The notes under the pieces: model-generated
What the model was told of the DNA's origin: nothing
Databases searched by the model: none
Seen by the model: only the letters and a program-made list of their open reading frames with translations
In this document: positions 23,041-26,904 of the stretch, piece by piece
How positions within the stretch are numbered: the first letter of the stretch is position 1
How the letters are laid out: every line of letters starts with the position of its first letter
DNA from: Halorubrum salinarum
GTDB taxonomy: Archaea; Halobacteriota; Halobacteria; Halobacteriales; Haloferacaceae
Length of the DNA: 64,000 nt
NCBI RefSeq assembly: GCF_013267195.1
Contig: NZ_CP053941.1
Location: 2,728,001 to 2,792,000 of the forward strand
Reading direction: 5' to 3'
Program-made: the position numbers and the translations under genes

Positions 23041-23187
23041 TAGGTGGGCCGTCGGCCCGCCGGTACGTATGTATTCTCATTCTCGCCCCCGGACCGGCGG
23101 TCCGCGAGTGTGGCCGGGGCTCAGAGACGCCACGCGCCGGCGGGCGCGAAGCAGACGTTTCAAGTTCGCTACCGCCCCACCCAGTCT

Positions 23188-24201
23188 ATGGACGGCCCAC
23201 AACGGCGCGCGCTCATCCTCGGTGCGGGCGGCGCCGTCCTCCTCCTCGCGGTGCTTTTCGTCGTCGTCGGCGTCGACCGCATCGTCGACGCGCTCGCGGC
23301 CGCCGACCCGGGCCTCGTCGCCGTGACGCTCGGCCTCGGCCTCTGCTGGCTCGCGGCGTGGAGCCTCATGCTCCGCGCCGTGCTGGGCGCGCTCGATGTC
23401 GAGATGTCCGTCCGGACCGCGTTCCTCGTGTACAGCGGCGCCGCCTTCGCGAACAACGTCACCCCGTTCGGCCAGGCGGGCGGCGAGCCGGTCGCCGCGG
23501 CGCTCATCTCGAAGGTGGGCGAGGCGCGGTACGAGACGGGGCTCGTCGGTATCGCGAGCGTCGACGTGCTCAACGTCGTCCCCTCCGTCTCGCTCGTGTT
23601 CCTCGGCGTCGGGTCGTACGCGGCCACCACGGCAGTCGGCGACCGCGTCGGCTTCGCCGTCGCGAGCGCGGTCGCGCTGATCGCCGCCATCGTCTCGGCC
23701 ATCGCGTTCGTCTGGCGCTACCGCGTCGCGGTCGTCGACCGCGTCCCGGGCGCCGTCGGCCCGTTCCTCGGACGTTTCGACCGCTTCGACGCCGAGACGA
23801 TCGAGGCCGGCCTCGCCGACCGCCTCGGCAACTTCTTCGCCGACATCGAGCGCGTCGGCACCGACCGGACGCGCCTCCTCGGGATCGTCGCGCTCTCGCT
23901 GACCGGCTGGATCTTCCAGGCGGCCGCGCTCACCGCCGCGTTCGCCGCGGTCGGCCACCCGATTTCGCCGGTCATCCCGGTCTTCGTCGTCCCGCTGTCG
24001 TACGTCGCGGGCGCGACCCCGCTCCCCGGCGGGCTGGGCGGCATCGAGGCCGCGCTCGTCGGCCTGCTCGTCCCGACGACCGGCGTCGCCGCCTCCGCGA
24101 TCACCGCCGCGGTCCTCGTCTTTCGCGGCGCCGTCTACTGGGTGCCGATGGTCATCGGCGGCGCCTCCGCGTCAGCGCTGGGCGTGAAGGCGTTCGAGTA
24201 G
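23188..24201 (+). CDS. UPF0104/lysylphosphatidylglycerol synthase-type membrane protein
   Basis: The 337-aa protein has about eight membrane helices and the family hallmarks AAFANNVTPFGQAGGEP and PLPGGLGGIEAALVGLL. The family includes the flippase part of MprF, without the catalytic soluble domain here. It probably moves or anchors lipids or isoprenoids. The ATG at 23188 is chosen because sequence upstream is not conserved. It is divergent from the alkaline-phosphatase-fold gene and probably belongs to the same envelope group. Confidence 0.88.
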   Translation: MDGPQRRALILGAGGAVLLLAVLFVVVGVDRIVDALAAADPGLVAVTLGLGLCWLAAWSLMLRAVLGALDVEMSVRTAFLVYSGAAFANNVTPFGQAGGEPVAAALISKVGEARYETGLVGIASVDVLNVVPSVSLVFLGVGSYAATTAVGDRVGFAVASAVALIAAIVSAIAFVWRYRVAVVDRVPGAVGPFLGRFDRFDAETIEAGLADRLGNFFADIERVGTDRTRLLGIVALSLTGWIFQAAALTAAFAAVGHPISPVIPVFVVPLSYVAGATPLPGGLGGIEAALVGLLVPTTGVAASAITAAVLVFRGAVYWVPMVIGGASASALGVKAFE

Positions 24202-24385: not shown

Positions 24386-25105
24386 ATGAACGGAGGCAAA
24401 GCGACGGAAAACGGGATCGCTCGGCGCACCGTCCTGCGGCGCGGGGCGCTCGTCTCGGCCGCGCTCGGACTCGGCGTCGCGGCGGGCGGCGGCGGGGCGG
24501 CGGCGTCGAAGCGACCAGAGTTGGTCGAAGCGATCGCGGTCGAGAGCGGCCTCTCGCCGCGGGACGCGGCCCGCGGGCTCGACGCGATCACCGGCGCGGT
24601 CACCGCCGCGTTACGGCGGGGAGACAGCGCCCAGGTCGAGGACTTCGGGCGGTTCAGTATCTCGAAGCGTAGCGCTCGGACCGGGCGAAACCCGCGGTCG
24701 GACCGAGGCGGCGACGACTCGCCGGTGACGTTCGACCCGTGTCCGGCGTTCGCGGCCGCGCTCGATCTCAACCCCGGCCGCGGCGACGTGGCGAGCGCCA
24801 AGTGTCGCGACGCCGACGTGTGGATCGACGCCGAGTCCGTCGCGAGCGACACCGGGCGCAGCTCCGACCAGGGGCTCGCGGCGCGCGAGGCGGCGCGGCT
24901 GCTGGACGCGCTCGTCACCGTGACGGCCAACGGCCTTCAGGGCGGGGGAACGGTCGTGGTGAGCGAGGCGTTCGGCTCGTTCGGCATCTCGAAGCGGAGC
25001 GCCAGGACGGGGCGGAACCCGCAGACCGGCAAGCGGACCGAGAGCGCGGCGAAGAACGAGGTCAAGTTCAAGGCCGGCGCCGAGCTCTCCGGGCAGGTGA
25101 ACTGA
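24386..25105 (+). CDS. Twin-arginine-exported protein with two HU/IHF-type domains
   Basis: The 239-aa protein starts with a Tat signal: RRTVLRR at 13-19, a hydrophobic Ala/Gly stretch (20-40) and an AAAS cleavage-like site. Residues 42-127 read as an HU domain (KRPELVEAIAVESGLSPRDA, then EDFGRFSISKRSARTGRNP). Residues about 143-236 repeat it with a weaker N-terminus (AREAARLLDALVTVTANGL, EAFGSFGISKRSARTGRNPQ). Both keep the DNA-intercalating arm motif ARTGRNP. Two Cys (119, 140) could form a disulfide. HU is bacterial-type and rare in archaea; exported tandem HU is very unusual. The function is unknown; extracellular DNA binding is an inference. Confidence 0.85.
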   Translation: MNGGKATENGIARRTVLRRGALVSAALGLGVAAGGGGAAASKRPELVEAIAVESGLSPRDAARGLDAITGAVTAALRRGDSAQVEDFGRFSISKRSARTGRNPRSDRGGDDSPVTFDPCPAFAAALDLNPGRGDVASAKCRDADVWIDAESVASDTGRSSDQGLAAREAARLLDALVTVTANGLQGGGTVVVSEAFGSFGISKRSARTGRNPQTGKRTESAAKNEVKFKAGAELSGQVN

Positions 25106-25167: not shown

Positions 25168-26904
25168 TCAGAAGAACAGCCACAGCACGAGCAGCGCGTA
25201 CAGGATCACCAGCGAGATGAGCGTGAGGCGGATGAGGATGTTGACGCTGAACACGAGCCCGTTGTAGTCGTTCTTCAGGAGCTTCACCGGCTCGGTCCGG
25301 TTGCTCTCGAACCCGACCGTCGCGGGCGCGACGTCGTCGACGGCGCGGTCGACCGCGCCCTCGATGGCGTCAATGTCGGACTCGCGCATGTTCGCCAGCT
25401 CGTGGATCGACGCGTGGGTGTCCGTCGAGAAGGGGATCACCGCGTCGAACTCCGCGCGGTACTCGTCGGCGGTCGCCCGCACGTCCGGGGTGAGCCCGTT
25501 GGTGTCGACGCCGATCCAGAGGACCTCCTGTCCGTCGACGCGCTCGACCATCGCCAGCGCGTCCTGGCCGGTCCGCGTCACGGAGAACCCGGCGGCGTAG
25601 TCCTCGACGAGGTCGGCGTCCGCGAGCCGGTCGCGGAAGTCGTCGAACGCGCGCTTCAGGCGGTCGGCCGTCGCGGAGCCGTACTGGATCTCGACGTCGG
25701 GGCCGTTCTGGATGTCGTGTCGGTGCTGGTCGATCAACAGCACCTCGTCGTGGTCGACGTCGCGCATGAACACGCCCGTGTCGTAGTCGTCGATCCCCTC
25801 GCCGTGGAGGACGACCACCTCCTTGTCCCCGATCCGGCGGCCGTGGAACCGCACGTCCGCGTAGCCCTCGCGCTCCCCGTACGACTCGGTCACGAGCCGC
25901 GAGACGCGCTCGGTCCGGTCCGGGTCCGCGACCGCGTCGAGGATCCGCTCCGCGTCCGCGGGGTTCGAGAGGTCCTCCTTGTGCGTACACGGGACGTGGA
26001 AGAAGAAGCCGGCCGCGTCCTCGGACGCGGCGCCGCCGTCGGTCGCGGCCGGGGCCGCGGCGCGCTCCGTCCCGTCGACCCCGCGGCCCTCGTTCAGCGC
26101 CTCGATCAGGTTTCCGCTCAGCTGGCCGCCGCCGAACCCGCCGAGCGGACCGGGGTGGACCCACGGGGCCGCCACCGTGAGCCGGCTCCCGTTGTCGACG
26201 GCGAACGTCTCGACGGCCGGGCGTGCCTCGACCCCCAGGTCGAGCGACTCGCGGTCGTTCCGGAGGAGGCCGGAGGTGAGCGCGAACGCGGAGACGTCGG
26301 TGTTGCTCTTGATCAGGTAGTCGACGACGACGAGGACCAGCACGAGGAAGCCAGCCGCGATGAGCAGCGAGGCGAACGCGAACACGTGCCGGTACGTCGA
26401 GAAGCCGAGCTCGCTCCCGCCCAGCGCGTAGAATGCGGCGATGAGCGCCGCCGGCTCGGCGAGCGAGACGAGCAGGATCCGGTCGGAGCGGTCGATGCCC
26501 GTCGAGACGACGAGCACCAGGATGTTGATCAGGTACAGCGTGATGAAGCTGAGCCAGATGATGCTCCAGGCGTTCCCGACGTTGTCCGCGCCGGAGAGCA
26601 CCAGGGCGTAGACGAACAGGACGAACTGCGAGGTGAGCGCGAGGAAGTAGCTCCACGACCGCGGGTAGCCGTCGAGCACGCGGGGGAACAGCTCGGCCGC
26701 GACGACGAACGGGATCAGGAAGATGAGGGCGGCGACGGGGACGATCCGAGACGGGTCCGGCGCGAACGGCGTGAAGAGCCAGATGCCGCCGAACGTGCCC
26801 ACCCCGTAGACGGCGCTGAGCGCGACGAGCGCGGCCGCCTGAATCCGGAGGGGCGGCACCGAGAAGACGAACCGCTGGAAGGCGTCGACGTTGTCCGCCC
26901 CCAT
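25168..26904 (-). CDS. DUF2070 family membrane protein
   Basis: The 578-aa protein has seven or so N-terminal membrane helices (to about residue 190), a large soluble domain (about 200-540) and one or two C-terminal helices. The soluble part contains APWVHPGPLGGFGGGQLS, VPCTHKEDLSNP, LHGEGIDDYDTGVF and LLIDQHRH, which are characteristic of DUF2070 in archaea. Histidines and aspartates here could bind metal. The ATG abuts the TAG stop of the upstream glycosyltransferase gene with no spacer, so the two are one operon. Confidence 0.93.
   Translation of the reverse strand: MGADNVDAFQRFVFSVPPLRIQAAALVALSAVYGVGTFGGIWLFTPFAPDPSRIVPVAALIFLIPFVVAAELFPRVLDGYPRSWSYFLALTSQFVLFVYALVLSGADNVGNAWSIIWLSFITLYLINILVLVVSTGIDRSDRILLVSLAEPAALIAAFYALGGSELGFSTYRHVFAFASLLIAAGFLVLVLVVVDYLIKSNTDVSAFALTSGLLRNDRESLDLGVEARPAVETFAVDNGSRLTVAAPWVHPGPLGGFGGGQLSGNLIEALNEGRGVDGTERAAAPAATDGGAASEDAAGFFFHVPCTHKEDLSNPADAERILDAVADPDRTERVSRLVTESYGEREGYADVRFHGRRIGDKEVVVLHGEGIDDYDTGVFMRDVDHDEVLLIDQHRHDIQNGPDVEIQYGSATADRLKRAFDDFRDRLADADLVEDYAAGFSVTRTGQDALAMVERVDGQEVLWIGVDTNGLTPDVRATADEYRAEFDAVIPFSTDTHASIHELANMRESDIDAIEGAVDRAVDDVAPATVGFESNRTEPVKLLKNDYNGLVFSVNILIRLTLISLVILYALLVLWLFF

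Follow-up and report, generated by a model that had tools for sequence, protein, structure and literature searches.

A gene in the 64,000-nucleotide stretch of haloarchaeal DNA analysed here (the window) encodes two HU domains in one chain behind a predicted Tat signal peptide. We consider it reasonably probable that the product leaves the cell as a single-chain HU 'dimer' and there binds and bends extracellular DNA, and that it derives from a captured and duplicated bacterial HU. A conserved HU with an export signal, if the signal is genuine, would mean that evolution made an extracellular DNA-binding protein on purpose; the HU proteins known so far from biofilms are cytoplasmic proteins that escape by release. 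Free DNA is abundant where the host archaea live, and they can use it as food; how haloarchaea hold on to and use extracellular DNA becomes a directly testable question.

Gene, signal peptide and HU domains

The open reading frame is intact, running from ATG to TGA with no internal stop, and encodes 239 amino acids. Its neighbours are a flippase-like gene at 23044-24201 (+) and, on the other side, a DUF2070-like gene at 25168-26904 (-); both names come from sequence reading and not from profile search. The features of the gene are:

24386-25105, +: whole gene, apparently monocistronic
24386-24505, +: predicted Tat signal peptide MNGGKATENGIARRTVLRRGALVSAALGLGVAAGGGGAAA, residues 1-40 (motif, 21-residue uncharged run, AxA-type site; TatC in the genome)
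24422-24427, +: twin Arg of the predicted Tat signal (signal motif)
24506-24766, +: HU domain 1, residues 41-127 (PF00216 match of this half alone; HU fold in the model)
24662-24694, +: putative DNA-binding arm of domain 1, SKRSARTGRNP with arm-tip proline (direct reading; conserved in most relatives)
24740-24742, +: Cys119, first of the pair flanking the linker (both Cys in 26/32 copies)
24767-24814, +: inter-domain linker, residues 128-143 (alignments)
24803-24805, +: Cys140, second of the pair flanking the linker (both Cys in 26/32 copies)
24815-25102, +: HU domain 2, residues 144-239 (PF00216 match of this half alone)
24989-25021, +: putative DNA-binding arm of domain 2, SKRSARTGRNP (kept in 23/24 aligned sequences)

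Profile searches with each half alone found PF00216 at residues 43-105 (2.1e-14, 53.9 bits) and 161-239 (1.2e-17, 64.4 bits), both above the cut-off of 22.4 bits, in agreement with the two HU domains proposed in the initial annotation. Its placing of HU in an archaeon also held, as the host genome gave an archaeal 16S match of 1590 bits and the gene sits inside a 2.9-Mb contig of an assembly that is 99.97% complete. A PDB sequence search returned HU and IHF structures, with an engineered single-chain IHF ranked first. The whole protein scored below the curated cut-offs of the HU-alpha, HU-beta and IHF equivalogs of NCBIfam (HU-beta, 94.7 versus 157 bits). ARTGRNP was found at residues 97-103 and 206-212 (tip-proline motif RTGRNP, 98-103 and 207-212), and both arms of the mature protein retain the arginines and the tip proline; these conserved arms point to DNA binding. 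The mature protein has a pI of 8.7, whereas ten neighbouring proteins range from 4.1 to 5.3; so high a value is uncommon in haloarchaea and agrees with a DNA-binding surface. A second tandem HU copy, 61% identical, was found on contig 2 of the same genome (G000:C2:176005-176724; L038 8985-9725), where its neighbour is a response-regulator-like gene; it has the standard tail SKAVN and has diverged less than the window copy.

In the window protein, ARRTVLRR (residues 12-19) is followed by 21 uncharged residues and then by AAA and S at residues 38-41, with a signal peptidase I site predicted after AAA. Tat signals were scored by a simple motif rule (twin-Arg, uncharged stretch, AxA, no lipobox Cys), under which all 32 copies compared have the features of a Tat substrate of the signal peptidase I class lacking a lipobox Cys; these include L174, which the automatic rule passed over solely on account of its motif SRRAIL. 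The Tat pathway carries folded proteins outward, and three matches to TatC were found in the host genome. In haloarchaea this pathway handles 39-55% of secreted proteins (PMC2945643). Export of the tandem HU via Tat, first suggested from the window protein, is strongly predicted for the whole set, and with neither a lipobox nor a membrane anchor the protein is predicted to be released from the cell. As a rule HU acts on chromatin inside the cell (PMC6877293), which would suit a cytoplasmic or membrane-tethered nucleoid protein with a merely Tat-like N-terminus. Such a protein is very improbable here: twin arginines, 17-25 uncharged residues and an AxA-type site stand at a fixed place in 32/32 copies, a fossil HU start comes after the signal (see below), and the Cys pair suits an oxidising compartment.

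The window protein has exactly two cysteines, C119 and C140, the latter nearly invariant in the family alignment; most copies that do not have both have neither. Joint loss is as expected of a disulphide, and a Cys119-Cys140 bond probably forms outside the cell. The pairing behind the cysteine lock first proposed is thus borne out, and the lock itself is suggested.

AlphaFold2 gave an HU fold in each half (full length, pLDDT 73.9 and pTM 0.68; mature chain, pLDDT 77.6 and pTM 0.76), and domain by domain the folds matched 3rhi_C (target TM 0.76, full-length model) and 1huu_C (target TM 0.76, mature model). Against the PDB, the full-length model matched single-chain IHF best (E 6e-6), with low TM-scores of 0.41/0.47 and an rmsd of 8.9; for the mature model that match fell to E 0.05 and ranked after microtubule inner proteins and HU. 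The models give the fold of each half but do not settle how the domains pack, and at such TM-scores and E value the built-in dimer of the initial annotation, an intramolecular HU dimer, is something we infer rather than read from the models.

The mature-model fold search returned Mycoplasma gliding-machine proteins as well as the microtubule inner proteins alongside HU, and the HU-CCDC81_bac_2 profile gave a weak match of 11.5 bits, under its cut-off of 35. In CCDC81-type proteins, tandem HU domains are believed to mediate protein-protein contacts. Together with the high external salt and the loss of the domain 1 arm in some relatives, these matches would fit an exported protein with a structural or adhesive role at the surface, in which the HU fold is reused to contact other proteins and not DNA. 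We regard this as unlikely, since the CCDC81 match is far under the family cut-off, the matching structures share only 11-13% identity, SKRSARTGRNP of domain 2 is nearly always kept, and the mature chain is basic by haloarchaeal standards. The domain 1 arm is lost or rewritten in 5 of 24 aligned sequences (L041, L042, L043, L045 and L049), all of which retain that of domain 2; with one arm near-invariant and the other degenerate in these five, the two halves of a DNA-binding tandem HU may divide the labour as in IHF.

Distribution, selection and bacterial origin

A survey of haloarchaeal homologues by family-profile search revealed a conserved family, with full-length tandem HU in 32 of 391 genomes sampled from the class, mostly from the window's genus and family. 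PF00216 was found in 25 of 392 genomes sampled from the order, two of which (G100 and G300) hold lipoproteins with an HU arm fragment and not HU proteins; in a phylum-wide sample of 247 genomes, HU exceeded the cut-off only within the window's genus. A scan of genome contigs with the single window protein as query gave no match. Viral contigs and plasmids yielded no relatives, and a viral or plasmid origin was rejected on that ground.

The 32 coding sequences, the window's included, were extracted and compared. The Tat signal, the AxA site and the two-domain order were intact in every copy, and the median pairwise dN/dS was 0.30 over 411 pairs with dS <1.5, synonymous change being about threefold the non-synonymous. 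The tandem HU is under purifying selection, and the joint retention of signal, domains and order with this synonymous excess excludes chance.

No gene family was found to recur around the HU copies, and no conserved neighbour points to a DNA pathway; an explanation by operon or neighbours was rejected because the neighbour families do not recur. Both flanks of the window gene were found together without an HU gene at 17 of 30 loci in the genus, and with HU between them only in G000 and G052; G228, G317, G382, G394, G402 and G430 have the flanks without HU and carry HU elsewhere. Changing loci and a patchy, strain-variable presence (PF00216 in 25/392 genomes of the order) could be those of a secreted weapon or halocin-like protein acting on competitors and not on free DNA, an improbable reading given that both HU domains are under purifying selection, that no conserved neighbour could serve as an immunity gene and that the protein has no toxin-like part.

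In a genome-contig profile search, 75 of the best 80 bacterial matches were to Bacteroidota, and typical haloarchaeal members share up to 40 of their last 45 residues with HU of Fluviicola or Saccharicrinis. After the AxA in most relatives comes MNKAELIEAMAS..., the start of a Bacteroidota HU such as that of Fluviicola (MNKAELIDAIASEAGLSKADAKKALDAF), so that the bacterial HU start MNKAELIE stands directly behind the cleavage site. An old initiator Met immediately after a signal peptidase site reveals how the gene was assembled. In a domain tree, which rests on few columns and does not resolve the deeper order, the sequences fell into three groups, made up of all 24 first domains, all 24 second domains and bacterial HU. 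This grouping indicates a single duplication, and the fusion most simply arose once. Judged from sequence, the tandem HU is a horizontally acquired Bacteroidota-type HU that was doubled once and placed behind a Tat signal.

In PMC6877293 (2019), four haloarchaeal HU sequences, e.g. EMA66313.1 of Halorubrum aidingense, fall among Bacteroidetes sequences and are viewed as possible recent transfers or contaminants, the choice being left open; the available text contains neither the term 'signal peptide' nor a mention of a tandem fusion. Those sequences very probably belong to the tandem family, as judged without sequence-to-sequence comparison, and no earlier report of a signal or fusion in haloarchaeal HU was found in the literature. 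The Bacteroidota affinity and the patchy presence would also be seen if the assemblies were contaminated, or if a bacterial gene had been transferred very recently and had no function, and that explanation is scarcely conceivable: the copies have haloarchaeal Tat signals and a common tandem architecture with one group each of first and second domains, lie inside multi-megabase contigs, are syntenic in two species and evolve at a dN/dS of 0.30. Contamination is excluded by the signal peptides, architecture, purifying selection and synteny, and haloarchaeal HU is a maintained gene family.

An isolated 56-residue open frame at L168 5322-5489 (G431) holds only the HU arm and tail, and is probably what is left of a tandem HU gene that has decayed. 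Upstream of the HU genes L033, L034, L038, L045, L048 and L051-L057, which belong to several close relatives, there is a shared AT-rich stretch of about AATTTTAAATATRTTTATAT, of which the window copy has a weak version; it is a probable archaeal promoter. A sigma-70 promoter scan was set aside as irrelevant to archaea.

Proposed action on extracellular DNA

In the mechanism we propose, a Bacteroidota-type HU gene would have entered haloarchaea, undergone one tandem duplication and been fused behind a Tat signal peptide. The tandem chain would fold in the cytoplasm as an intramolecular HU pair, be exported folded by Tat, be cleaved after the AxA and then be released. Outside, the Cys pair of the linker would probably form its disulphide, and the two proline-tipped arms would clamp and bend DNA without a second chain, a tandem needing no partner in the dilute exterior. 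HU-DNA contacts are largely electrostatic and salt-sensitive, so DNA binding in molar NaCl is not assured. Free DNA is the likeliest ligand outside, and the protein would most likely serve to retain such DNA, in compacted form, on the cell surface or close to it, where the DNA could act as matrix or later be taken up or degraded; candidate roles thus include matrix, surface retention, nutrient capture, scavenging and uptake. Haloferax volcanii metabolises extracellular DNA (PMC3929857), and in biofilms extracellular DNA is scaffolded and cross-linked by bacterial HU/IHF (PMC8878592).

The family resembles bacterial HU (PF00216), especially that of Bacteroidota/Flavobacteriales, in the domain fold, the arm RTGRNPQTGKEI and the C-terminal tail KNVVKFKAGAELS, but differs in having two domains per chain, a Tat signal, the linker Cys pair and an archaeal host. 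Like the DNABII proteins (HU/IHF) of biofilms, it is an HU-family protein expected to meet extracellular DNA (PMC8878592); those, however, are ordinary HU/IHF that are released or reach the exterior in other ways (PMC8878592, PMC9370930), whereas the window family encodes a dedicated export signal. HTa of Thermoplasma is likewise a bacterial HU acquired by an archaeon, but is a single-domain chromatin protein (PMC6877293). The engineered single-chain IHF (PDB 2iie/2iif) also has two HU/IHF folds per chain, but is man-made from IHF subunits and is not secreted.

Lipoproteins carrying HU pieces

The family profile also matched Tat lipoproteins of 500-700 residues in many haloarchaea (61 of 384 genomes of the order). 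At varying positions they contain brief stretches almost identical to parts of the tandem HU (arm, C-tail or helix 2): the arm piece SISKRSARTGRNPQTGKEI in mid-protein or near the C-terminus, the tail piece VKFKAGAELSKAVN at the very C-terminus and, in some, the helix 2 piece LDAFINATTKALKKGDR. The arm piece alone exceeds the Pfam HU cut-off (2.1e-6). In the window's own genome the lipoprotein tail NEVKFKAGAELSGQVN equals that of the window HU. The loci are:

G000:C1 about 2276.4-2278.3 kb; L225 8437-10287: own-genome lipoprotein, found by the family profile
L171 3969-5837; L185 4745-6643: lipoproteins
L036, L037, L169, L170, L172, L173, L175, L226-L235: lipoproteins

The peptides shared by HU and lipoproteins differ at many synonymous sites and are therefore conserved as peptides and not freshly copied; recent gene conversion between the two kinds of gene was rejected on the same evidence. 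Order-wide, lipoproteins occurred in 12 of 23 genomes with HU against 49 of 361 others (p 3e-5). Within the genus alone the figures were 6 of 13 against 3 of 19 (p 0.11), which is not significant, and shared ancestry may explain the order-wide link. We can only tentatively, and with considerable doubt, suggest a dedicated extracellular DNA-handling layer, in which the Tat-exported single-chain HU would be accompanied by membrane-anchored Tat lipoproteins displaying its arm (SISKRSARTGRNPQTGKEI) and tail (VKFKAGAELSKAVN) peptides. If true, no HU lineage before this one would have had an export signal of its own, and the arm of HU would have been turned into a transplantable surface module.

RCC1 repeats were matched in 6 of 10 lipoproteins (best 1.3e-5; fragments like VYCWGxN), together with a weak fragment match to the T4 gp19 tail tube (loop KRPGRxKYGNITLKK) and, in one lipoprotein, a piece of EF-Tu. 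PDB sequence searches with the lipoprotein cassettes found nothing useful. The lipoproteins share a conserved motif, YNSxRSNK, and appear as mosaics of peptides from well-known families, e.g. L229, L231 and L235. An element of about ATAAGAAAgCTTAT, an inverted repeat overlapping a TATA-like box, is conserved 20-50 bases before the start of the lipoprotein genes L172, L173, L175, L225, L226, L232 and L235, and may reflect shared regulation.
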